DNA from: an uncultured Candidatus Udaeobacter sp.
Lineage (GTDB): Bacteria; Verrucomicrobiota; Verrucomicrobiia; Chthoniobacterales; UBA10450
Assembly: GCA_955652715.1 (NCBI GenBank)
Contig: CATPBS010000243.1
Coordinates: forward strand, 1 to 17,499
Direction of reading: 5' to 3'
DNA length: 17,499 nt
Position 1 is the first letter of the stretch, and every line of letters begins with the position of its first letter. Below the pieces are notes generated by a model. That model had not been told where the DNA came from and searched no databases. It saw nothing but the letters and a program-made list of their open reading frames with translations. Positions 3,941 through 14,550 of this stretch are shown in pieces. The translations under genes and the position numbers were made by a program.

Positions 3941-5128
3941 ATGAGCAAGTCAATCGACCAGATCTTTGTCAACGCAAAGCAATGGCTGCTTACGTGTCTC
4001 GGGGGGTCGCCGACCTGGGTCATTCAAGTGGTGTCGAGTCTGGTCAACATTTTCGCGCTACTCGCTGTATTCCTAACGCTTTTCGCGCTCATCTCGGTGT
4101 TGGAGCGAAAAATTCTTGCACGAATACAGAACCGCTACGGTCCGAATCGTGTGGGTCCCTTCGGTCTTTTTCAACCCATCGCCGACGGCATTAAAATGTT
4201 GATCAAGGAAGACATCGTGCCGGCACGGGCAGACAAGATCGTCCACTTTCTCGCGCCGATTCTTATTGCCGCCGCGGCCATCCTTGCGCTCGGCGTGATT
4301 CCGTACGGCCGAAAGATGACGCCGTTTACAATCGACGGTGGCATTCTCTTTTTTTTTGCGGTGGGATCGACTACGGAGCTCGCCGTGTTCATGGCCGGCT
4401 GGGGCAGCAACAACAAATTTTCGATGCTCGGGGCGATGCGCGCCATAGCCCAAATGATCAGCTACGAACTGCCGCTCATTCTCACCGCGTTGCCGGTGGT
4501 GATGGTCGTTAGCTCGCTCACACCCGACCGGATTGTTGCTGCGCAAGCTGGTTACACGTTTGGGCTAGTGCCGCGCTGGTTTGTCTTTACGCCTTGGGGC
4601 GCAGCCGCGTTTATTCTGTTTTTCATCTCGGGTCTGGTGGAGTCAAATCGCACTCCATTCGATGTACCCGAGGGCGAATCGGAAATTGTCGCGGGTCACA
4701 TGACCGAATATTCCGGATTCAAGTACGCCACGTTTTTCATGGCGGAATACATTGGCATGTTCGCCATCAGCGGTCTCGGCGTGACTTTGTTTCTTGGTGG
4801 CTGGCACGCGCCCGCGCGCGCTCTTGAGTTCGTTCCGTCTTACGTCTGGTTTTTCGCGAAACTGAGCACGTTGCTATTCGTTTACATCTGGGTCCGGGGA
4901 ACGCTCCCACGCACGCGCGTCGATCAAATGATGAACTTTGCCTGGAAGTTCATGTTGCCGATGGCGTTCACGTGCATCCTTGCCGCTGCCGTCTGGCATT
5001 ATGCTGGACGCGGCTTGCGCGGCTGGCTGTGGTCGCTTCTGGTGATCGCAATTGTTTACACCGCCCTGTCGACGTTGCTCGACACGAGAAGAAAATTCGC
5101 GCCGCGCGTTTATCGCTTCGCCGAATGA
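3941..5128 (+). CDS. nuoH: NADH-quinone oxidoreductase subunit H (NuoH)
   Basis: 395 aa integral membrane subunit forming the quinone-chamber end of the complex I membrane arm. Family blocks seen: LERKILARIQNRYGPNRVGP (54-73), QPIADGIKMLIKED (78-91), WGSNNKFSMLGAMRAIAQM (154-172), NRTPFDVPEGESEIVAG (236-252), EYSGFKYATFFMAEY (256-270) and WVRGTLPRTRVDQM (317-330). The charged loop residues that line the quinone site are present. It is longer than the 325-residue E. coli protein. There is an N-terminal extension, and a further predicted membrane helix (about 362-380) lies after the helix that normally ends the protein. It is the first gene of the operon. Its stop overlaps the nuoJ start (ATGA at 5125-5128), whereas nuoI normally follows nuoH. 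Confidence 0.97.
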   Translation: MSKSIDQIFVNAKQWLLTCLGGSPTWVIQVVSSLVNIFALLAVFLTLFALISVLERKILARIQNRYGPNRVGPFGLFQPIADGIKMLIKEDIVPARADKIVHFLAPILIAAAAILALGVIPYGRKMTPFTIDGGILFFFAVGSTTELAVFMAGWGSNNKFSMLGAMRAIAQMISYELPLILTALPVVMVVSSLTPDRIVAAQAGYTFGLVPRWFVFTPWGAAAFILFFISGLVESNRTPFDVPEGESEIVAGHMTEYSGFKYATFFMAEYIGMFAISGLGVTLFLGGWHAPARALEFVPSYVWFFAKLSTLLFVYIWVRGTLPRTRVDQMMNFAWKFMLPMAFTCILAAAVWHYAGRGLRGWLWSLLVIAIVYTALSTLLDTRRKFAPRVYRFAE

Positions 5129-5607
5129 ACAGCGGCGCGTTTATCCTCATCGCCATTTTCACGCTCGCCGCGGCGTTGGCAGCTGCAACGTTGCGAAAAC
5201 TGATGCACGCCGCGCTCAGTTTCGCGCTCGCCTTCGTTGGGCTGGCATCCTCTTTCTTTCTGCTGGGCGCGGAATTTGTCGGCTTGGCGCTGGTGTTCGT
5301 TTACATCGGCGCGGTCGCGGTGTTGATCGTTTTTACGATTCTGCTTACGCGGCGCGATGTTGAGAAAGATCGCGGTTTCAACTGGGGCGGCGTTCCAATC
5401 GCTGTTGCTGTATTTGGCGGTTTGACGTGGTCGATTCTAAAGACGCAATCAATTGCCATCGTCGCCCCACGCATGCCAGCGCTTACGGTAAAACAAATTG
5501 GCGCAGCATTGATGACCAGCTACGTGTGGCCGTTGCAATGCGTCGGGCTTCTGCTGACGGCCGCGCTGATTGGCGCCCTTATTCTCGTGATCGAGGAAAA
5601 GCGATGA
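5125..5607 (+). CDS. nuoJ: NADH-quinone oxidoreductase subunit J (NuoJ)
   Basis: 160 aa with five predicted membrane helices. NuoJ packs between NuoH/NuoA and NuoK, and its third helix carries the pi-bulge involved in conformational coupling. The hallmark is EFVGLALVFVYIGAVAVLIVF (residues 50-70, Glu50 and Tyr60), followed by the TILLTRRD basic loop. The start was set at the ATG overlapping the nuoH stop (ATGA, 5125-5128), which implies translational coupling. The frame is open further upstream, but that part overlaps nuoH and is not membrane-like. The C terminus, IGALILVIEEKR, is typical. A 95-base gap follows before nuoK, unusual in an operon where most junctions overlap. Confidence 0.95.
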   Translation: MNSGAFILIAIFTLAAALAAATLRKLMHAALSFALAFVGLASSFFLLGAEFVGLALVFVYIGAVAVLIVFTILLTRRDVEKDRGFNWGGVPIAVAVFGGLTWSILKTQSIAIVAPRMPALTVKQIGAALMTSYVWPLQCVGLLLTAALIGALILVIEEKR

Positions 5608-5702: not shown

Positions 5703-6017
5703 ATGACACCCACACTTCAAGCCTTCCTCATCGTATCCACCGCACTCTTTTCCATCGGCCTGCTCGCGGCATTGAGTCGCCGCCATGCTATTTTCATTCT
5801 CATCGGCATCGAAATGATGCTTGCCGCAGCAAACTTAAATTTCATCGCCTTCTGGCGTTTTGGTCCGCACCATCAACCACCGATTGGCGTGATGATCGCA
5901 CTATTTTCTATTGCCATCGCCGCTGCCGAAGCCGCCGTCGGGCTCGCGATGGTAATCGCCGTTTATCGCCACTATCGCACGACCAACGTCGATCAGCTTG
6001 ACCAGCTCCGGGGATGA
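5703..6017 (+). CDS. nuoK: NADH-quinone oxidoreductase subunit K (NuoK)
   Basis: 104 aa with three membrane helices, the MrpC-like subunit linking the quinone module to the first antiporter-like subunit. The two membrane glutamates of the central hydrophilic axis are present: Glu37 in LIGIEMMLAAANLNF and Glu76 in IAIAAAEAAVGLA (equivalent to E36 and E72 of E. coli NuoK). The cytoplasmic end is VYRHYRTTNVDQLDQLRG, a common family ending. Its stop overlaps the nuoL start (ATGA at 6014-6017). Confidence 0.97.
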   Translation: MTPTLQAFLIVSTALFSIGLLAALSRRHAIFILIGIEMMLAAANLNFIAFWRFGPHHQPPIGVMIALFSIAIAAAEAAVGLAMVIAVYRHYRTTNVDQLDQLRG

Positions 6018-8011
6018 ATTCCTGGATCGTAACCTATCTCTGGTTCGTGCCCGCAGCGCCCTTCGTGGCTTCGCTGATTATTTTGACTTTGTCGAACGCG
6101 CGGCGAAGAAGCGCAGCCGCGCTGGCGATTGCCGGACAAATCGCGGCATTAGCAATGTCGATCCTGGCATTTGGGCAGACGCTGCAGACGCCCGGCTTCC
6201 GTGTCGTTCAGAATTTCACCTGGTTCACTTTCGGCGAACAAGCATTGCGTCTCGGATTTGTTTTTGATCCCCTTGGTGCCGCGATGCTGCTGATGGTCGC
6301 GCTCGCCGGGCTTTGTATTTTTGTCTTCAGCGTCGGCTATATGGCCGAGGACAAAAATTTCACCCGTTTCTTCGCGTACCTGTCGTTCTTTTCCGGCGCC
6401 ATGCTCGGCTTGGTTATCGCCAACAGTCTGCTTCTGCTATTCATTTTTTGGGAATTGGTCGGACTCGCTTCGTATTTGCTCATCGGGTTTTGGATCGAGC
6501 GACCGAGGGCGGCGGAGGCCGCAAAAAAGGCCTTCATCACCACGCGCATCGGCGACATGGGATTCTTTCTTGGCATCCTTTGGCTCTACGGCCGCAGCGG
6601 CACCCTTCTTTTCTACGATCGTGGGAACGGTTGCCTTGAGAGCGCCGGCCTGGCCATGCTCGGCGCAAGCGCGACCTTCATCGCGCTGCTGATTTTCTGC
6701 GGCGCCGTCGGAAAGTCGGGACAATTCCCGCTGCACGTCTGGTTGCCTGATGCGATGGAAGGGCCCACACCGGTCAGCGCGTTGATCCACGCCGCGACGA
6801 TGGTGGCCGCCGGTGTGTTTCTGGTCGCACGCGTCTATCCGCTCTTCTCTTTAGGCCCAATCAATGGCGTGACGCCGTCGCTCACCGTCGTCGTATGGAT
6901 CGGTGTAACTACTGCGCTGATGGCGGCGCTCATCGCGATCGCGCAAGCCGACATCAAACGCGTCTTGGCGTATTCGACCGTGTCGCAACTTGGTTTGATG
7001 ATGGTCTCGTTAGGCGTCGGCGGCGTCGCGGCGGGGATAATGCACCTGCTGGCGCACGGATTTTTTAAAGCGCTCCTGTTCCTCGGCGCGGGCTCCGTGA
7101 TTCACGGATGCCACGGAGAACAGGACATCCGTAAAATGGGCGGCCTGCGGCGCCTCATGCCGGTGACGTTTTTCACGTACGCCGTCGGGATGATGGCGCT
7201 CAGCGGGGTGCCATTCTTTTTCTCCGGCGGCTGGACGAAAGAGGAAATCCTTCATGCCACGGCGAGCTGGGCGCCATCGCATGCACCGTATTACCTGATT
7301 CTCGCCGGAGTCGTTCTCACTGCGCTCTATATGACGCGGCAAGTCATCTACGTCTTTTTCGGTAACCCACGCGCTACTGCGGAGCACGCGCACGAAAGCC
7401 CGCGTGCCATGACGATGCCTCTGATCGTGCTGGCGCTTTGCGCAATTTTTTTCAGCGTGGTGCTCACGCCTGCGTGGCCGTGGCTGCATGGATATCTAAC
7501 CGGCGAACCCGTGCACTTCGAGATCGCGCGTTTGATTCAGCCGATGCTCTTCGTTTCGCTTGTGCTTGTTGGCGGGGGTGTCGCCGCTGGCATCTGGATC
7601 TATCGCAAAGCTGGGGCCCCAGAACGCGATCGCCCAGCTGAGATCGATCCGCTCGAATATGCGCAGCCCGCATTGTTTCGCTTTCTGGCAAACGGGATGT
7701 GGATCGACGAACTTTATGATCGCACGGTCATCGCGTTCAGCTGGGCGAGCGCGCGTCTCTCCGACTGGATGGATCGTTATTTCTGGGATGGGCTCGTGCG
7801 CGGATTCGGTGCGATCGCCCAGCTTTTTGGAATCTTTACAACCAGCGTTGGTGAGCGCGGGATCAATGCCGGAGTCGATGAGACGACTGTTGGCACGCGC
7901 GGTCTGGGCCGCCTGATCTCCGCGGCGCACTCCGGACAAATCCAAACCTACCTCGGCGCAGTCGCCATCGGAATGCTCGCGCTGCTCCTTCTCTACGCAT
8001 GGTTGGCTTGA
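6014..8011 (+). CDS. nuoL: NADH-quinone oxidoreductase subunit L (NuoL) with extended lateral helix
   Basis: 665 aa, against 613 in E. coli. This is the distal antiporter-like proton pump, with a long C-terminal amphipathic helix (HL) running back along the membrane arm. Pump residues are complete: Glu147 in FIFWELVGLASYLL (TM5), Asp181 in TRIGDMGF, Lys234 in VGKSGQFPLHVWLPDA (TM7), His259 in SALIHAATMV (TM8) and Lys409 in GGWTKEEIL (TM12). The HL region from DELY (565-568) to GQIQTY (641-646) spans 76 residues; in ordinary NuoL sequences as I recall them it is about 50. The extra stretch sits around DRYFWDGLVRGFG and ERGINAGVDE, whose acidic-Arg starts are 27 residues apart. It overlaps nuoK by 4 bases and nuoM1 by 13. 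Confidence 0.97.
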   Translation: MNSWIVTYLWFVPAAPFVASLIILTLSNARRRSAAALAIAGQIAALAMSILAFGQTLQTPGFRVVQNFTWFTFGEQALRLGFVFDPLGAAMLLMVALAGLCIFVFSVGYMAEDKNFTRFFAYLSFFSGAMLGLVIANSLLLLFIFWELVGLASYLLIGFWIERPRAAEAAKKAFITTRIGDMGFFLGILWLYGRSGTLLFYDRGNGCLESAGLAMLGASATFIALLIFCGAVGKSGQFPLHVWLPDAMEGPTPVSALIHAATMVAAGVFLVARVYPLFSLGPINGVTPSLTVVVWIGVTTALMAALIAIAQADIKRVLAYSTVSQLGLMMVSLGVGGVAAGIMHLLAHGFFKALLFLGAGSVIHGCHGEQDIRKMGGLRRLMPVTFFTYAVGMMALSGVPFFFSGGWTKEEILHATASWAPSHAPYYLILAGVVLTALYMTRQVIYVFFGNPRATAEHAHESPRAMTMPLIVLALCAIFFSVVLTPAWPWLHGYLTGEPVHFEIARLIQPMLFVSLVLVGGGVAAGIWIYRKAGAPERDRPAEIDPLEYAQPALFRFLANGMWIDELYDRTVIAFSWASARLSDWMDRYFWDGLVRGFGAIAQLFGIFTTSVGERGINAGVDETTVGTRGLGRLISAAHSGQIQTYLGAVAIGMLALLLLYAWLA

Positions 8012-9483
8012 TTACAGCGATCATTTTTATTCCGCTCGTCGGAGCGCTCGCGGTCTGCGCCTGGCCGCAGAGGAATGGTCGTCCAATCGCTCTGATGTTT
8101 AACGCCATCTCCGCAGTGTGCGCTTTGGTATTATGGCGGAATTTTGACCCCACTTCCTCGGGGCTCCAGTTCGTCGAACGCCATGCCTGGATTCCCGCCA
8201 TCGGCGCTGAATATCTGCTTGGCGTCGATGGCTTGAGTCTGCTGCTGGTATTACTCACATCGACAATCGTTCCGTTTGCACTTCTGGCGCAACCAGTTCC
8301 AGGCGCAGGTCGCGCCTTCTATGCGACGATGCTGATAATGCAGTCAGCCCTCTACGGCACGTTCACTGCGCAGAATTTCATTCTCTGGTTCTTGTTTTAC
8401 GAAATGAGTCTGCTCCCCGCGTTTCTGCTGATCAAAATATGGGGCGGCGAAAACCGTGACCGCGCTGCGACCAAGTTTTTCCTTTACACATTCCTGGGCA
8501 GCGTGGCGATGTTGCTTTCGTTCCTCGGGATTTATTTCGCGAAAGGTACGTTCGACTTTGCCGCTCTCGCCGCCTTCGGGAAGAACGGTCTGCTGACAGG
8601 TAAACTCGCGTGGCTTGCGTTTGCCGGAATCTTTGTGGGTCTCGCAGTAAAAGTGCCGCTGTTTCCGTTTCACACCTGGCTGCCCGACGCGTATCAAACC
8701 GCGCCTACGGGCGTGTCGATGGTGCTCACGGGCGTCCTCTCGAAAATGGGCGTTTATGGTTTCGTGCGTCTGTTGCTTCCTCTTTTTCCAAACGAGATCA
8801 AGATCATCGGTCCATGGCTTCTTGGGTTGGCGATCTGCTCGATTGTATTTGCTCCGTTGGCTGCGTGGGCGCAGCGGGATTTGAAACGCATGATTGCCTA
8901 CTTGTCGATCAATCATCTCGGTTACTGCATGCTTGCTCTCTTTGCGGTAGCCGCCTCACCTGTTGTTGGTGCAACGATCGATATGCAGGCAGCGTTGAGC
9001 GGCGTGTTCATGCAAATTTTCAACCACGGCATCACCGCGGCTACGCTTTTCTATTTTGCCGGTCTGCTTGAACGACGGCGCGGTCTACGTGGCATCGATG
9101 ATTTCGGTGGGCTGATGCAGCGAACACCGCTCCTCTGCGGCTGGATGAGCGTTGCGATGTTTTCATCTTTGGGTTTGCCGGGACTGAACGGATTCATCGG
9201 AGAGTTTCTCATCTTCAAAGGCTCATTCGCGATCGCGGCCGCGTTTACGGCCATTGCTGTGATCGGGCTCCTCGTCACAGCCATCGTCTTTGTGCGCGCA
9301 ATGCAATCCCTCTTCAGTGGGCCACTCGCAGAAAGTTGCAGCGGGTTTCCTGATCTTTTGCGAAGTGAAAAGCTCGTCATCGTTCCTGTGACATTGCTCA
9401 TGTTCGCCATCGGCATCGCGCCGCAATTTATCTTCAACATCTTCAACGCAACCGTCGTTCAAATGGCGCGGCTGTTTGGTTGA
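7999..9483 (+). CDS. nuoM: NADH-quinone oxidoreductase subunit M, first copy (canonical NuoM)
   Basis: 494 aa antiporter-like proton pump with about 14 membrane helices. All charged residues of the proton path are present: Glu135 in FLFYEMSLLPAFLL (TM5), Lys218 in GLAVKVPLFPFHTWLPDA (TM7), Lys249 in GVLSKMGVYG (TM8) and Glu402 in NGFIGEFLIFKG (TM12); these match E144, K234, K265 and E407 of E. coli NuoM. The connecting loop AQRDLKRMIAYLSINHLGYC is typical. The start ATG lies inside the last codons of nuoL (13-base overlap). The next gene is an ORF6N-domain gene 12 bases downstream, not nuoN. Only general family blocks are shared with the second NuoM in this operon, so the two are old paralogues. 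Confidence 0.96.
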   Translation: MVGLITAIIFIPLVGALAVCAWPQRNGRPIALMFNAISAVCALVLWRNFDPTSSGLQFVERHAWIPAIGAEYLLGVDGLSLLLVLLTSTIVPFALLAQPVPGAGRAFYATMLIMQSALYGTFTAQNFILWFLFYEMSLLPAFLLIKIWGGENRDRAATKFFLYTFLGSVAMLLSFLGIYFAKGTFDFAALAAFGKNGLLTGKLAWLAFAGIFVGLAVKVPLFPFHTWLPDAYQTAPTGVSMVLTGVLSKMGVYGFVRLLLPLFPNEIKIIGPWLLGLAICSIVFAPLAAWAQRDLKRMIAYLSINHLGYCMLALFAVAASPVVGATIDMQAALSGVFMQIFNHGITAATLFYFAGLLERRRGLRGIDDFGGLMQRTPLLCGWMSVAMFSSLGLPGLNGFIGEFLIFKGSFAIAAAFTAIAVIGLLVTAIVFVRAMQSLFSGPLAESCSGFPDLLRSEKLVIVPVTLLMFAIGIAPQFIFNIFNATVVQMARLFG

Positions 9484-9495
9484 GATGCGTCGCGG

Positions 9496-10047
9496 ATGAG
9501 CAAAGAGATCATTCCCATCGAGCGCGTAGCGCAATCGATTCGCTGGATTCGCGGCCAGAAAGTGCTGCTCGATTCTGATCTCGCGACCTTATATGGCGTG
9601 ACCACGGGAAACCTAAATAAAACTGTAAAGCGCAACGCTGATCGGTTTCCCTCCGATTTCATGTTTCAGCTTAAGCCTGAGGAACTTGCAAACTTGAAAT
9701 TCCAATTTGGAATATCAAGTTGGGGCGGCCGCCGGCGATCGCGTCCCTATGTTTTCACAGAGCAGGGCATCGCCATGCTCTCGATCGTGTTAAACAGCGA
9801 GCGCGCGATCAAAGTGAACATCGCGATCATGCGCACATTCGTGAAGCTGCGCGAGATGCTCGAGACGAATCGCGAGTTAGCGCGAAAATTTTCGGAGCTC
9901 GAACATGTCGGCAAGCACGATGAGGAAATCGCCGCTGTCCTCGAAGCGATCCGACGGCTGATGGCGCCGCCGGAAAAGCCACGGCGTGAAATCGGGTTTC
10001 ATGTGCGCGAGAAGGGCCCGCGGTATCGGGCGCGTAAACGCGCATGA
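9496..10047 (+). CDS. ORF6N-domain DNA-binding protein inside the nuo operon
   Basis: 183 aa soluble protein. Residues about 6-95 match the ORF6N domain known from phage antirepressor-like proteins and widespread chromosomal relatives: VAQSIRWIRGQKVLLDSDLA, LYGVTTGNLNKTVKRNADRF, PSDFMFQL, SSWGGRRRSRPYVFTEQGIA and MLSIVLNSERAIKVNIAIMR. A charged helical stretch follows (120-155, likely coiled coil), then a basic tail, LMAPPEKPRREIGFHVREKG to the end. Family knowledge supports DNA binding; no cellular function is established. It starts 12 bases after nuoM1, and its stop overlaps the nuoM2 start (ATGA at 10044-10047), so it is transcribed and translated with complex I. Nothing in it resembles a complex I subunit: it has no membrane helix and no cysteine cluster. 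No clear terminal repeats mark it as a recent insertion. Confidence 0.93.
   Translation: MSKEIIPIERVAQSIRWIRGQKVLLDSDLATLYGVTTGNLNKTVKRNADRFPSDFMFQLKPEELANLKFQFGISSWGGRRRSRPYVFTEQGIAMLSIVLNSERAIKVNIAIMRTFVKLREMLETNRELARKFSELEHVGKHDEEIAAVLEAIRRLMAPPEKPRREIGFHVREKGPRYRARKRA
10030..10043 (+). promoter_or_regulatory. GC-rich hairpin abutting the nuoM2 start codon
   Basis: GCGCG-TAAA-CGCGC forms a perfect five-pair stem (a T-A sixth pair is possible) ending at the base just before the nuoM2 ATG at 10044. It occupies the position where a Shine-Dalgarno would be, and no purine-rich site is visible there. With the ATGA stop/start overlap this suggests that nuoM2 is translated mainly by ribosomes that have just finished the ORF6N gene. 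The structure is seen in the sequence; the role is inferred. Confidence 0.45.
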
Positions 10048-11525
10048 TCGCCTGGACGATTTACATTACGTTCGCGGGCGCAGTGCTGCTGCTTGTCTTG
10101 CCACGCACGTTTGCGCGCTGGATCGCGCTGCTTACAACGATCGCAGGCCTCGCCTTGGGCCTCATCGCATTCGTTCGCACGCCGATTGGCGATCTTGCGC
10201 ATTTCGCCACGATTGTGCGCGTGCCCTGGGTGCCGGCCCTCGGGATGAATTACCATCTGGCGATCGATGGCGTCAGCCTGACGATGGTTCTTGTTACGGG
10301 TATCTCGGCCGTAAGCACCGTGCTGTTTTCATGGGACGTTGAACATCGGCAGAACGAATTTTTCTTCTGGTTACTTCTGGTGGTGGCCGGGTCCTACGGA
10401 GTTTTTCTAAGCGCCGATTTGTTTCTGTTTTTCGCGTTCTACGAGCTGGTGATCGTGCCGAAATATTTTCTAATCGCCATTTTTGGATCCACTAACAAGG
10501 AATACGGGGCGATGAAGCTGACGCTCTATTCGTTTTTTGGCGGCATGCTCGTATTCATCGGGATACTTGCCGCATACGTAACTGCCGGATCGCTGGACAT
10601 GAATCAGCTCGCGCAATTTCAATTCAATCCGCAACTGCAATCGTGGGCGTTTCCTGTGTTGTTTCTCGGTTTCGCCGTGCTCGCCGGAATTTGGCCACTG
10701 CATACGTGGGCGCCGACGGGTCACGTCGCGGCGCCTACGGCCGGTTCCATGCTTCTCGCCGGGATCGTGATGAAACTCGGCTCTTACGCAGGGCTCCGCG
10801 TCGCGATGAATCTCTTTCCACTGGGCTTCCAGATGTGGAGCAAATGGATCGCCTTTCTGGCGGTCGTTGGAATTGTTTACGCCGCGGCCGTAGCGCTCCG
10901 TCAACGTGATCTGAAATTTGTTATTGGTTATTCGAGCGTCAGCCACATGGGCTTCGTGTTGCTGGGTCTCGCCGCGGCAACGGCGCTAAGCGTTTCAGGG
11001 GCGGTATTGCAAATGTTTTCGCACGGCGTGATTGCGGCCCTTTTGTTTGCCGTCGCTGGACGCATGATCTATCGCCGCACACACACGCGCGAGCTCGACG
11101 CGCTCGCCAGCATGAACCTGGGCCGCGCTCTGCCGTTTGCCGCGTTCACTTTTGTCATCGCCTCAGCCGCGTCGATGGGCATACCCGGTTTCAGTGGATT
11201 CGCTGCCGAGATCACAATTCTCATTGGCGCATGGAAAACTTATCCGCTCGCGGTCTGGATCACCGGCGCTGGCATGGTGCTCGTTGCTGCATTCACGTTG
11301 CGGGCGTTAAAGCAATCGTTCTTCGGCGAGGCGGAGCCAAGCGTGCTCTTGCAAAAAGGCCGGGTAGCGCTCGACCCGGATTGGAATGAACAACAAAGCA
11401 TTACGGCTGCGGAAAAATGTGGTGCTTGCCTGCTCATGTTCGCGACGCTCGCGGTTGGGATTTATCCCAAACTGTTGCTCGATCGCATTATGCCTGCAGT
11501 CGAATCGATGAGGTTTCTGAAATGA
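10044..11525 (+). CDS. nuoM: NADH-quinone oxidoreductase subunit M, second divergent copy (NuoM2)
   Basis: 493 aa antiporter-like subunit with about 14 membrane helices, the fourth pump-type subunit of this operon. Conserved residues: Glu134 in FAFYELVIVPKYFLIAIFG (TM5), Lys244 in AGIVMKLGSY (TM8) and Glu389 in GFSGFAAEITIL (TM12). The loop ALRQRDLKFVIGYSSVSHMG is normal. The TM7 block reads GFAVLAGIWPLHTWAP (209-224), where canonical NuoM has FAVKVPLFPFHTWLP, so the TM7 lysine is replaced by Leu213 (codon 10680-10682). The alignment is ungapped and anchored by FAV and HTW. The rest of the protein is intact, so this is not decay. The start is fixed by the ATGA overlap with the ORF6N gene. Position between NuoM1 and NuoN fits the 2M complex I layout. 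Its stop overlaps a short 8-codon frame (11522-11548). Confidence 0.93.
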   Translation: MIAWTIYITFAGAVLLLVLPRTFARWIALLTTIAGLALGLIAFVRTPIGDLAHFATIVRVPWVPALGMNYHLAIDGVSLTMVLVTGISAVSTVLFSWDVEHRQNEFFFWLLLVVAGSYGVFLSADLFLFFAFYELVIVPKYFLIAIFGSTNKEYGAMKLTLYSFFGGMLVFIGILAAYVTAGSLDMNQLAQFQFNPQLQSWAFPVLFLGFAVLAGIWPLHTWAPTGHVAAPTAGSMLLAGIVMKLGSYAGLRVAMNLFPLGFQMWSKWIAFLAVVGIVYAAAVALRQRDLKFVIGYSSVSHMGFVLLGLAAATALSVSGAVLQMFSHGVIAALLFAVAGRMIYRRTHTRELDALASMNLGRALPFAAFTFVIASAASMGIPGFSGFAAEITILIGAWKTYPLAVWITGAGMVLVAAFTLRALKQSFFGEAEPSVLLQKGRVALDPDWNEQQSITAAEKCGACLLMFATLAVGIYPKLLLDRIMPAVESMRFLK

Positions 11526-11535
11526 AATCCGCCGA

Positions 11536-11559
11536 TTCAACGACTTAACGCTTCAACGA
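11536..11559 (+). repeat. Three 8-base tandem units abutting the nuoN start
   Basis: TTCAACGA, CTTAACGC and TTCAACGA follow each other without gaps, giving the consensus YTYAACGM. The last A is the first base of the nuoN ATG. The units fill most of the 33-base gap between nuoM2 and nuoN. Related TTAACG cores occur in the gaps before nuoH, after nuoJ and after nuoN. Function is unknown; no Shine-Dalgarno is evident in this leader. Confidence 0.45.
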
Positions 11560-13100
11560 TGTCCTATCTCCAGCTTCTCAAACTTGCCTCGCCCGAGGCT
11601 GTGGTCGTTGTTACCGCACTCGTACTCCTTGCCGTCGGGCTGACTATTCGGCGCCGAACGGTTGACGCGACCGTCTCGACCATGCCACTGGATCAAAATG
11701 CAAGCGGCACGCCTGCCGCCATGCCAGACGCATTGGGACCAATCTGTTGTTCCATTGCCGCACTTGGGCTTGTAGTTGCAATCGGCACAGTGCTGATGTT
11801 GCCTCGCAACGCGAACCTTTTCGGCGGGATGCTCGTGATCACCCCGCTCACCTGCCTCTTCAAAATTATCTGTATCGCCTTAGCATTCTTCACCGTCCTC
11901 CTGACGACATCAGAAAAGGCGCCGCGTCATCCGGGCGAATATTTGGCGCTTGTGTTGTTCGCAACAGTCGGCCTGATGCTGCTAGTCGGTAGCGAGGAGT
12001 TACTGATGATTTTCATCGGACTCGAACTGCTCGGCTTGTCGCTTTATGTGATGACCGCATTCGACAAGACGGATGTGCGTTCCGCGGAAGCCGGTCTGAA
12101 ATACTTTCTGTTCGGCAGCACCTCCAGCGCTTTCACGCTTTTCGGAATCAGCTTGATCTATGGTATGTCGGGCACGACGAGTCTTGCGGCGATTTCGGAA
12201 AATCTGGCCACCGCATCTGTGCAACCGTTGCTAGCCGTTGGGCTTGTCATGACGCTCATCGCTTTCGCGTTCAAAATCGCCGCCGCACCGTTTCACGTCT
12301 GGGCGCCGGACGCCTATCAGGTCGCGCCCGTTCCCAGCGCAGCATTTATTGCCTCGGCCTCGAAGGTCGCGTCGTTTGTGGTGCTGGGGAAGATAGTGCT
12401 GGTCGGGTTTGCTCCCCTGCACGGTGCCGCCGCGTGGCACGCCATGGTTGCTGGTTGGTCGCCCGTCCTTGCCGCGCTGGCAGCGTTATCGATATTGGTC
12501 GGCAATCTGGTGGCGCTCGCGCAATCAAACGTGCGCAGACTGCTTGCCTACTCCGCAGTGGCACATGCTGGATACACACTCATTGGACTGGTCGCTGGCG
12601 ATCGCGACGGATTTTCCGCCGCGTTATTCTACGCCACCGTCTATGCCATCACACTTGTCGGTGCATTCGGCATAATTGCTGTGGTGCGGCGCGAGACGGG
12701 TGGCGACGATTTCTCAAACTTTCGCGGATTGGCTTCCCGATCTCCCTTGCTCGCGGGATGCATGTCTATCTTCATGTTGTCACTGGCAGGAATACCGCCG
12801 CTCGCCGGATTTTTTGGAAAATTTTATATATTCAGTGTCGCGCTTCGCGCCGGTGCAAACCTGGGGTTGCTCTGGCTCGTAGGAGTCGCGCTTCTTGGCA
12901 GTTTCATCTCGCTGTACTATTATCTGCTCGTCCTGAAGACGATTTTCGTCGATGAGCCTCCGCTTCCCGCCGAGCGACACGTCGATGTCCAGCCTGATCT
13001 GCTGCTGCGAACTACGGTCGCTGTGCTCGCTGCGACGGTTCTTTTGCTCGGCGTGGCGCCGGAGATCCTGGCAGCGCGGATCCTTGCCGCGGTACCGTAA
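11559..13100 (+). CDS. nuoN: NADH-quinone oxidoreductase subunit N (NuoN)
   Basis: 513 aa antiporter-like pump subunit, nearest to NuoK. Conserved residues are Glu155 in IFIGLELLGLSLYV (TM5), Lys239 in AFAFKIAAAPFHVWAPDAYQ (TM7), Lys269 in FIASASKVAS (TM8) and Lys421 in PPLAGFFGKFYIF (TM12); lysine rather than glutamate at the last position is the norm for NuoN. The block AQSNVRRLLAYSAVAHAGY is typical. Residues about 31-60 form a polar insertion between the first two helices (RRRTVDATVS through NASGTPAAMPDA) that looks non-conserved. It is the last complex I gene of the operon, 33 bases after nuoM2, with no SD-like purine run before its ATG. Confidence 0.96.
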   Translation: MSYLQLLKLASPEAVVVVTALVLLAVGLTIRRRTVDATVSTMPLDQNASGTPAAMPDALGPICCSIAALGLVVAIGTVLMLPRNANLFGGMLVITPLTCLFKIICIALAFFTVLLTTSEKAPRHPGEYLALVLFATVGLMLLVGSEELLMIFIGLELLGLSLYVMTAFDKTDVRSAEAGLKYFLFGSTSSAFTLFGISLIYGMSGTTSLAAISENLATASVQPLLAVGLVMTLIAFAFKIAAAPFHVWAPDAYQVAPVPSAAFIASASKVASFVVLGKIVLVGFAPLHGAAAWHAMVAGWSPVLAALAALSILVGNLVALAQSNVRRLLAYSAVAHAGYTLIGLVAGDRDGFSAALFYATVYAITLVGAFGIIAVVRRETGGDDFSNFRGLASRSPLLAGCMSIFMLSLAGIPPLAGFFGKFYIFSVALRAGANLGLLWLVGVALLGSFISLYYYLLVLKTIFVDEPPLPAERHVDVQPDLLLRTTVAVLAATVLLLGVAPEILAARILAAVP

Positions 13101-14191: not shown

Positions 14192-14550
14192 CTACTGCCA
14201 GTGGCCTGGAATCCATACCCAGCCACCCGCACGAGGCATCCAATGGCCTTCCACCCAGACTGCGGCTGGTCGTGGGCGAACTACCCAGGTTCCCGCCACC
14301 CACACGTAGGTTGTTCCGGTCCATCGCCAGTAACCGTTCGTCCAGACGTATCCCGGTCCAGGTGTTACCGTCTGAGTTTCGATGCGAACTGGCGGCGGCG
14401 CTCGGGTCACCACGACCTCGCGAGCCGGTCCCGTCGTTGTGACTTCCTGTGTCGTTGTTGTGGTCGTCACAGTCGTTGGTTCCGCCGCACACAGCCGACC
14501 AAAGCTAGCCCTAGTAACGCCAGCATTGGTAGATAAGAGCTCATTCTCAT
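14192..14550 (-). CDS. WXXGXW (YXWGXW)-repeat small lipoprotein, apparent frameshift at the lipobox
   Basis: The C-terminal 92 codons (14470 down to 14192) encode a Thr-rich start (TTTTTTQEVTTT) and four copies of a W-x-x-G-x-W motif: VWTNGYW, VWVAGTW, VWVEGHW and VWIPGHW. This is the family of small envelope proteins with WXXGXW repeats. That frame has no ATG or signal peptide, only a GTG at 14470. A different frame starts at ATG 14550 behind a strong GGAGGG site and encodes a lipoprotein signal (MRMSSYLPMLALLGLALVGC), then stops at 14469-14467. Removing one dinucleotide from the CACACA run (14488-14493) fuses the two frames into LVGC-AAEPTTVTTT..., a 118-residue lipoprotein. The first-frame TGA overlaps the GTG (GTGA), so low-level reinitiation without a signal is possible. 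Error, pseudogene or phase variation cannot be separated here. Confidence 0.8.

Follow-up and report, generated by a model that had tools for sequence, protein, structure and literature searches.

We analyzed a stretch of 17,499 nucleotides (the window) from an uncultured Candidatus Udaeobacter sp., which carries a run of genes for the membrane arm of respiratory complex I (Table 1). The window is contig C243 of the source metagenome-assembled genome (MAG), G000; we cite genomes, contigs, loci and families by our own numbers, prefixed G, C, L and f. Between nuoL and nuoN lie two genes for NuoM, here called M1 and M2, and complexes with two NuoMs are referred to as 2M. The frames of NuoL, M1, M2 and NuoN are full length, lie on the forward strand, have no internal stop and, scored with NCBIfam models, all exceed the curated cut-offs. 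An earlier note, made from the sequence alone, had claimed four antiporter-like pumps at this locus, and the frames and scores bear this out. Two full-length NuoM genes between NuoL and NuoN are the arrangement that characterizes 2M clusters. The two NuoMs are also as strongly diverged as had been claimed, sharing 33% identity and falling in separate clades. The description of a tightly packed L-M1-M2-N operon stands in part: both NuoM genes do lie between nuoL and nuoN, but an ORF6N-domain gene parts them, and the run starts further upstream, at nuoH, with the nuoH, nuoJ and nuoK frames likewise full length. The window has none of nuoA to nuoG, nor nuoI.

Our interpretation, to which we give a probability of about 80%, is that the genes of the window specify the membrane arm of a second complex I, which is of the 2M type and lacks the NADH module (NuoE, NuoF and NuoG). 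The 2M assignment, made already in the earlier note, is borne out by a NuoL lengthened by 25 amino acids and by the branching of both M1 and M2 inside NuoM.

Table 1. Complex I genes of the window, the gene between M1 and M2, and the residues and segment discussed in the text (positions are those of the window).
Feature	Position	Strand	Remarks
nuoH (395 aa)	3941..5128	+	quinone-site membrane subunit, opens the run; PF00146 E 1.2e-111; NuoH equivalog NF004741 above cut-off
nuoJ (161 aa)	5122..5607	+	PF00499 E 3.7e-28
nuoK (104 aa)	5703..6017	+	PF00420 E 7.6e-26
nuoL (665 aa)	6014..8011	+	distal pump, lateral-helix region lengthened; NF005141 593.8 bits (cut-off 556)
NuoL 25-residue extension	7793..7867	+	about residues 594-618; alignment-based, exact edges an alignment choice
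nuoM1 (494 aa)	7999..9483	+	lysine of transmembrane helix 7 (TM7) present; TIGR01972 NDH_I_M 470.0 bits (cut-off 263.8)
ORF6N-domain gene (183 aa)	9496..10047	+	between M1 and M2; PF10543 E 1.1e-32; 4-base ATGA overlap with M2
nuoM2 (493 aa)	10044..11525	+	TM7 lysine replaced by Leu213, extra TM5 Lys140; TIGR01972 421.4 bits (cut-off 263.8)
M2 Lys140 codon	10461..10463	+	E. coli NuoM position 150; M2-specific TM5 lysine; residue alignment
M2 Leu213 codon	10680..10682	+	E. coli NuoM Lys234 position; residue alignment
nuoN (513 aa)	11559..13100	+	five key residues checked, all present; TIGR01770 380.0 bits (cut-off 332.6)

A NuoL lateral helix that is longer by about 26 amino acids has been described as a mark of 2M complexes (PMC9040806, PMC6606698; here and below, statements from the literature follow excerpts of the cited papers). 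In the window NuoL and its relatives, the distance between the anchor residues R588 and G641 is 53 residues in 33 of 33 2M rows (29 distinct), also in G203, whose operon is split. For comparison, the MAG's own canonical NuoL has 28 residues there, six canonical or single-M verrucomicrobial NuoLs have 27-29, E. coli has 29 and a single-M NuoL of Prevotella 27. The gain of 25 residues is therefore present in every 2M NuoL row and in none of the canonical NuoLs measured, and a pattern count among 120 listed homologues of the canonical NuoL returned one constant canonical length in all 120. Among the genomes examined, no lengthened NuoL was seen with only one NuoM. At 1.5 Å per residue, 25 helix residues extend over about 37 Å, and the width of one pump is close to this value. 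The lengthening is identical across families f1, f2, f10 and f16, which suggests that this segment is a rigid spacer. No other indirect evidence speaks as clearly for M1 and M2 being parts of the same complex.

To place the two NuoMs, we used quick trees with 18 M1 and 18 M2 rows, in which long branches were flagged and support is by the Shimodaira-Hasegawa-like approximate likelihood ratio test only. M1 and M2 form one clade each, so the two have been passed on as a pair. The M2 clade joins the canonical verrucomicrobial NuoM, the NuoM of the single-M locus L140 and the NuoM from an Omnitrophota bin (97-100% support). M1 lies outside this group, either with E. coli and acidobacterial NuoM (94% in one tree) or as sister to all others in the other tree. 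A recent tandem duplication of NuoM is ruled out by these separate, supported clades and by the grouping of M2 with canonical verrucomicrobial NuoM. The earlier note had regarded a branching of M2 with Mrp or hydrogenase antiporters as evidence against a 2M complex. Such branching was not seen: in a tree with NuoL, NuoN and the four E. coli hydrogenase antiporters HycC, HyfB, HyfD and HyfF, both M1 and M2 fall inside NuoM. Their NDH_I_M scores compare with at most 158.6 bits for the listed cation-antiporter or hydrogenase models. Tree and family scores together rule out a hydrogenase-antiporter origin of M2, while an Mrp origin is set aside by the family scores only, as the tree included no Mrp sequence.

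The remaining core subunits are encoded elsewhere in the source MAG. The gene nuoA and part of nuoB, cut by the contig end, lie on contig C33, and nuoC, nuoD and nuoI on C109, so that with nuoH, nuoJ and nuoK in the window all of A, B, C, D, H, I, J and K are accounted for. In same-genus relatives, a second NuoD type (about 390 aa) occurs with nuoA, nuoB, nuoC and nuoI beside rpoA- and rplQ-like genes, these neighbors being identified by eye. The ABCDI and HJKLMMN sets are on separate contigs in the source MAG and in four same-genus relatives. Among 20 fetched loci (L127-L146), nine have A-B-C-D-I-H-J-K-L-M1-M2-N in a single run (L129-L133, L137, L138, L141 and L142; families f16, f2 and f10). 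L135 has matches for all twelve genes with the position of A unplaced, and the remaining ten extend beyond the sequence fetched, belong to split forms or are single-M (L140). In two further f1 genera (G052 and G203), ABCD or ABCDI lies head to head with an HJKLM1 run. The operon of G203 (contig C14; L128, L184) is split beyond this, with M2-N alone about 36 kb away from the head-to-head ABCDI and HJKLM1 sets; despite the split, this genome keeps A-B-C-D-I, H-J-K-L-M1 with a lengthened NuoL, and M2-N.

None of the 20 loci gave a match to NuoE, NuoF or NuoG at E 1e-4, so the membrane arm is not accompanied there by these subunits as it is in the canonical 14-subunit NADH:quinone complex I. In nine of ten genomes searched there is exactly one NuoF (three in G206), and in the source MAG and in G007 it sits in the canonical cluster. 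The earlier note had implied a complete complex I with one added pump. This is not supported in that form: the cluster showed no NADH-module gene, ABCDI lies elsewhere, and a single-M complex I is also encoded in the MAG.

That single-M complex I accounts for the other pumps of the source MAG, which has seven PF00361 proteins, four in the window and three on contig C235. C235 carries a conventional G-H-I-J-K-L-M-N cluster with one NuoM, and C298 carries D, E and F apparently fused together, and further copies of G and H. Seven pumps were also counted in six of seven better genomes, against nine in the seventh, G052. C235 (L008) and C298 (L098) each hold their own, differing copies of canonical nuoG and nuoH, which suggests that the MAG is a mixture of two relatives. 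The apparent fusion of NuoE and NuoF (L098 3333-5354) is one frame of 673 aa. According to the earlier note, a single-NuoM cluster elsewhere in the genome, together with evidence that M1 and M2 never co-assemble, would tell against a 2M complex. The first does exist, but the lengthened NuoL argues against the second.

We compared key residues of the pump subunits. In NuoL, Glu144, Asp178, Lys229, His254, Lys342 and Lys399 are retained, and Asp400 is replaced by Glu in 31 of 33 2M rows. NuoN retains Glu133, Lys217, Lys247 and Lys395 in all 34 rows and His305 in 32 of them. In M1 all six NuoM residues checked, including the TM7 lysine, are retained in 33 of 33 rows (29 distinct). M2 differs: at the position of E. 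coli Lys234 it has Leu in all 37 rows (36 2M rows and the single-M L140; 32 distinct), while Glu144, Lys265, His322, His348 and Glu407 are retained in all 37. Among the homologues listed for two M2 queries (120 each, counted for residues irrespective of gene neighbors), Leu occupies this position in 240 of 240, and His348 differs in two. A full pump-residue set in every antiporter subunit is thus not present, given this Leu and the Asp400 change in NuoL. We nevertheless keep the 2M assignment because a full set is not known as a defining feature. A lysine six residues past the TM5 Glu is found in 36 of the 37 M2 rows (the exception being L140) and in all 240 listed homologues.

Glu144 and Lys234 form the ion pair of NuoM (PMC9271201), and E. 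coli NuoM lost quinone reductase activity when E144, K234 or K265 was replaced (Euro 2008, via PMC5061711). M2 might therefore be a structural or electrostatic relay and not a full pump, in which case the complex would have four pump-like subunits and no fifth proton. Its missing Glu-Lys gate, uniform over the M2 rows and listed homologues, and the E. coli substitutions favor this idea, which we consider possible, if somewhat unlikely. The other key residues of M2 are retained, with the two His348 changes as the only departures among the listed homologues. Moreover, the sole canonical NuoM of these Verrucomicrobia shares the Leu (10 of 10), as does the NuoM of Prevotella, so the lysine seems to be dispensable in that lineage. 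Finally, M2 has its new lysine past the TM5 Glu, and canonical NuoM has a second lysine in TM8 instead (10 of 10). Either lysine could stand in for Lys234, with the qualification that a residue at i + 6 points in a different direction from the helix. We thus continue to regard M2 as a subunit of a four-pump arm that may well pump, given that single-M complexes, presumed functional from their conservation, share the Leu.

A second alternative concerns the NADH module: the 2M arm and ABCDI might borrow the canonical NuoE, NuoF and NuoG, giving an NADH-oxidizing 2M enzyme. In its favor are the single NuoF of nine of the ten genomes searched and the presence of two NuoD types in the genomes. However, the absence of NuoE, NuoF and NuoG matches from the 20 fetched loci and the description of 2M complexes without these subunits (PMC7300363) make borrowing improbable.

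The ORF6N-domain gene between M1 and M2 recurs in relatives. The gap between M1 and M2 could be measured in 56 rows, in which several contigs are counted twice, and 33 of these have an ORF6N match in the gap. Eight Udaeobacter-type rows from six contigs (L043, L046/L146, L051, L066/L145, L078 and L082) have a gap of 6-60 bases and no ORF6N match, and L041/L108 has only a diverged ORF6N remnant. In families f16, f2 and f10, ten rows have gaps of -1 to 58 bases without ORF6N, as does L081 with a gap of 9 bases. Two longer gaps contain other sequence (991 bases with a PIN-domain gene in L074; 631 bases without ORF6N in L058). The ORF6N frame overlaps the start of M2 by exactly four bases in 20 of 24 rows (L061 and L127 being one contig). 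Its median ratio of nonsynonymous to synonymous substitution rates (dN/dS) is 0.13 (94 of 105 pairs from 15 copies), compared with 0.091 for M1 and 0.092 for M2 at similar dS. Because only nearly complete copies were chosen and dS approaches saturation, this ratio indicates constraint on intact copies, not function. The gene appears to be long established at this place and not to have been inserted recently.

The ORF6N gene, by parting M1 and M2 in the 33 rows and overlapping M2, and the location of M2-N far from M1 in G203 could suggest that M1 and M2 are alternative NuoMs of three-pump complexes formed under differing conditions, their ratio perhaps set by the ORF6N gene, but this is very unlikely, since a constant 25-residue lengthening of NuoL is expected only with an extra pump and M1 and M2 adjoin in families without ORF6N. 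A further reading of the 2M arm, possible but rather unlikely, makes it a hybrid of two NuoM lineages, in which adjacent pumps of one enzyme would have different gates, M1 with the textbook TM5 Glu and TM7 Lys and M2 with its own TM5 Lys in place of the lost TM7 Lys; in the family of the window, the gene for a DNA-binding-type ORF6N protein would have been domesticated within the operon and coupled translationally to M2. An arm that has the TM7 lysine in M1 and none in M2 is a natural test of whether pumping needs the Glu-Lys gate.

Together with NuoA, B, C, D and I from the two other contigs, the products of the window genes would give an enzyme of 12 subunits, four of them antiporter-like pumps. 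Their order, going by the gene order, would be N-M2-M1-L, with the lengthened lateral-helix region of NuoL reaching over the extra pump. Electrons would probably enter at NuoI from a low-potential donor and pass through NuoB and NuoD to quinone, and protons would be pumped by a coupling wave from NuoH/A/J/K to N, M2, M1 and L. Ferredoxin is the donor usually proposed. The enzyme might alternatively run in reverse and produce reduced ferredoxin. The genes and their intactness, the gene set, the constant NuoL lengthening, the residue pattern and the phylogeny are observed, whereas co-assembly, electron donor, direction and stoichiometry are all inferred. In the usual bookkeeping the E-channel counts as one proton; if all four pumps work, the enzyme would move 5 H+ per 2 e-. 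This figure is less certain with the loss of Lys234 in M2, which leaves the extra proton per cycle suggested in the earlier note unproven. We also examined POR_N (PF01855), a domain of possible makers of reduced ferredoxin. At E 1e-40 all 16 genomes that have the 2M set matched it, as did 7 of the 12 that lack the set (exact test p 0.008). We take this as a hint only, because the threshold was chosen after seeing the list and the test ignores the relatedness of the genomes.

Several observations weigh against our interpretation. The source MAG, of 1.98 Mb, is only 69% complete and apparently mixes two relatives, so we read the gene set from better genomes as well. The single-M complex I of the same MAG could in principle share subunits with the 2M arm, M2 has no TM7 lysine, and the 2M complex is predicted from its genes. 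Single-M complexes with such a NuoL insertion are reported from Manganitrophaceae (PMC9040806), which tells against the insertion as a strict 2M mark. AlphaFold models the window NuoL with one helix at 564-609 and the canonical NuoL with one at 520-548, but in both regions the predicted local distance difference test score is mostly below 50, and we therefore did not use these helices as evidence. The ferredoxin link is weak, as POR_N at the default threshold matches 26 of 28 genomes, including 10 of 12 without the 2M set; we dropped it as a marker of a ferredoxin donor.

The 2M arrangement is neither chance nor a misassembly: many further MAG contigs, as well as single-contig genomes of relatives, likewise have M1 and then M2 between L and N. 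Close M2 genes come from records assigned to Verrucomicrobia, Spartobacteria, Chthoniobacterales or Candidatus Udaeobacter. In an evenly drawn sample of 288 verrucomicrobial genomes, including the source MAG, 16 have an M2 match at E 1e-95. Without the single-M G051 there are 15, from families f1 and f16; M1 adjoins M2 in 13 of them and lies about 36 kb away in G203 (G197 is left out of this count). Families f2 and f10 of the same order also carry the 2M set. Proteins similar to the M2 of f16 carry the names Lacunisphaera, Opitutus and Didemnitutus, which we take to be culturable, so culturable 2M hosts may exist. Two loci filed under Acidobacteria (L071 and L080) have M2 proteins 84% and 89% identical to that of the window. 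Given this identity, and since the other clusters in both bins have a single NuoM with the TM7 lysine, these contigs are probably misbinned. Spread of the 2M set to Acidobacteria or Omnitrophota is thus unsupported, the Omnitrophota-bin locus L081 being left aside. Udaeobacter has been called globally abundant in soil (PMC7343977, from its title), and a four-pump complex I without NuoE, NuoF and NuoG could bear on energy saving in this dominant soil group.

A number of additional genes were observed in and around these clusters. In the window, a divergent LptD-type gene lies upstream of nuoH, a deoxyhypusine synthase-type gene (PF01916) follows the 2M run, and a small open reading frame with WXXGXW repeats (PF12779) is on the reverse strand at 14192-14470. 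Downstream of two f16 2M clusters is a second set of B-, C-, D-, H- and I-like genes that resembles a membrane hydrogenase-type module (L129 613-4268; L135 5-4490). In nuo operons of relatives, a hybrid histidine kinase lies between K and L (L058 3591-5783), and another insert has a beta-lactamase-like serine hydrolase, identified by eye (L074 2679-5041). PD-(D/E)XK genes (PF13366, GxxExxY-type) interrupt the canonical nuo operon at two places, between nuoK and nuoL (L008 4582-4986) and between nuoEF and nuoG (L098 2895-3329), and in a relative a 4-kb gene set lies between canonical nuoH and nuoI (L104 15131-19001).

Among known systems, the single-M complex I of Prevotella nigrescens (Bacteroidota), presumably an 11-subunit enzyme without NuoE, NuoF and NuoG, resembles the present case in the Leu at the Lys234 position of NuoM, but it has one NuoM and no NuoL extension. 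Published 2M complexes come from Nitrospira, Chloroflexi and marine Thaumarchaeota; that of the Thaumarchaeota lacks NuoE, NuoF and NuoG. Our literature search, within its excerpts, returned neither a 2M complex I from Verrucomicrobia nor a 2M M2 without the TM7 lysine; Chadwick et al. 2018 may still contain one of either. Leu at the equivalent place is on record for E. coli HycC (PMC5061711). In Chloroflexi, the extra NuoM is likewise between L and N, and peripheral genes may lie apart, as in a Lost City MAG that has nuoBCDI on another contig (PMC7117926). Chloroflexus aggregans has a listed nuoABCDHJKLMMN cluster, without NuoE, NuoF and NuoG, beside a second, 14-gene complex I (PMC8004040). 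The Chloroflexi systems differ in belonging to another phylum, in a fused nuoCD (PMC7117926) where C and D are separate here, and, compared by description and not by sequence, in the ORF6N gene that parts M1 and M2 in the window. The complex of marine heterotrophic Thaumarchaeota (Chadwick clade 2, cited in PMC7300363) also has a duplicated NuoM, no NuoE, NuoF and NuoG, and an uncertain donor; it is archaeal, and this comparison is again by description only. Nitrospira (clade 3; PMC6606698, PMC9040806) has two NuoMs and a NuoL lateral helix about 26 aa longer, but lacks nuoE, nuoF and nuoH and has an enlarged nuoG, whereas the present cluster includes nuoH and no nuoG was seen with it; the direction proposed for the Nitrospira complex is from quinol to ferredoxin. 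Acidobacterium capsulatum has an ordinary complex I and an unusual one with duplicated nuoM (PMC11636273), while the acidobacterial-type clusters in two bins of our sample (L170-L173), which did not include A. capsulatum itself, are single-M with the TM7 lysine. Since 2M complexes, some without NuoE, NuoF and NuoG, are already published, the system described here is another case, one whose M2 is unusual and whose gene run includes a conserved ORF6N gene.

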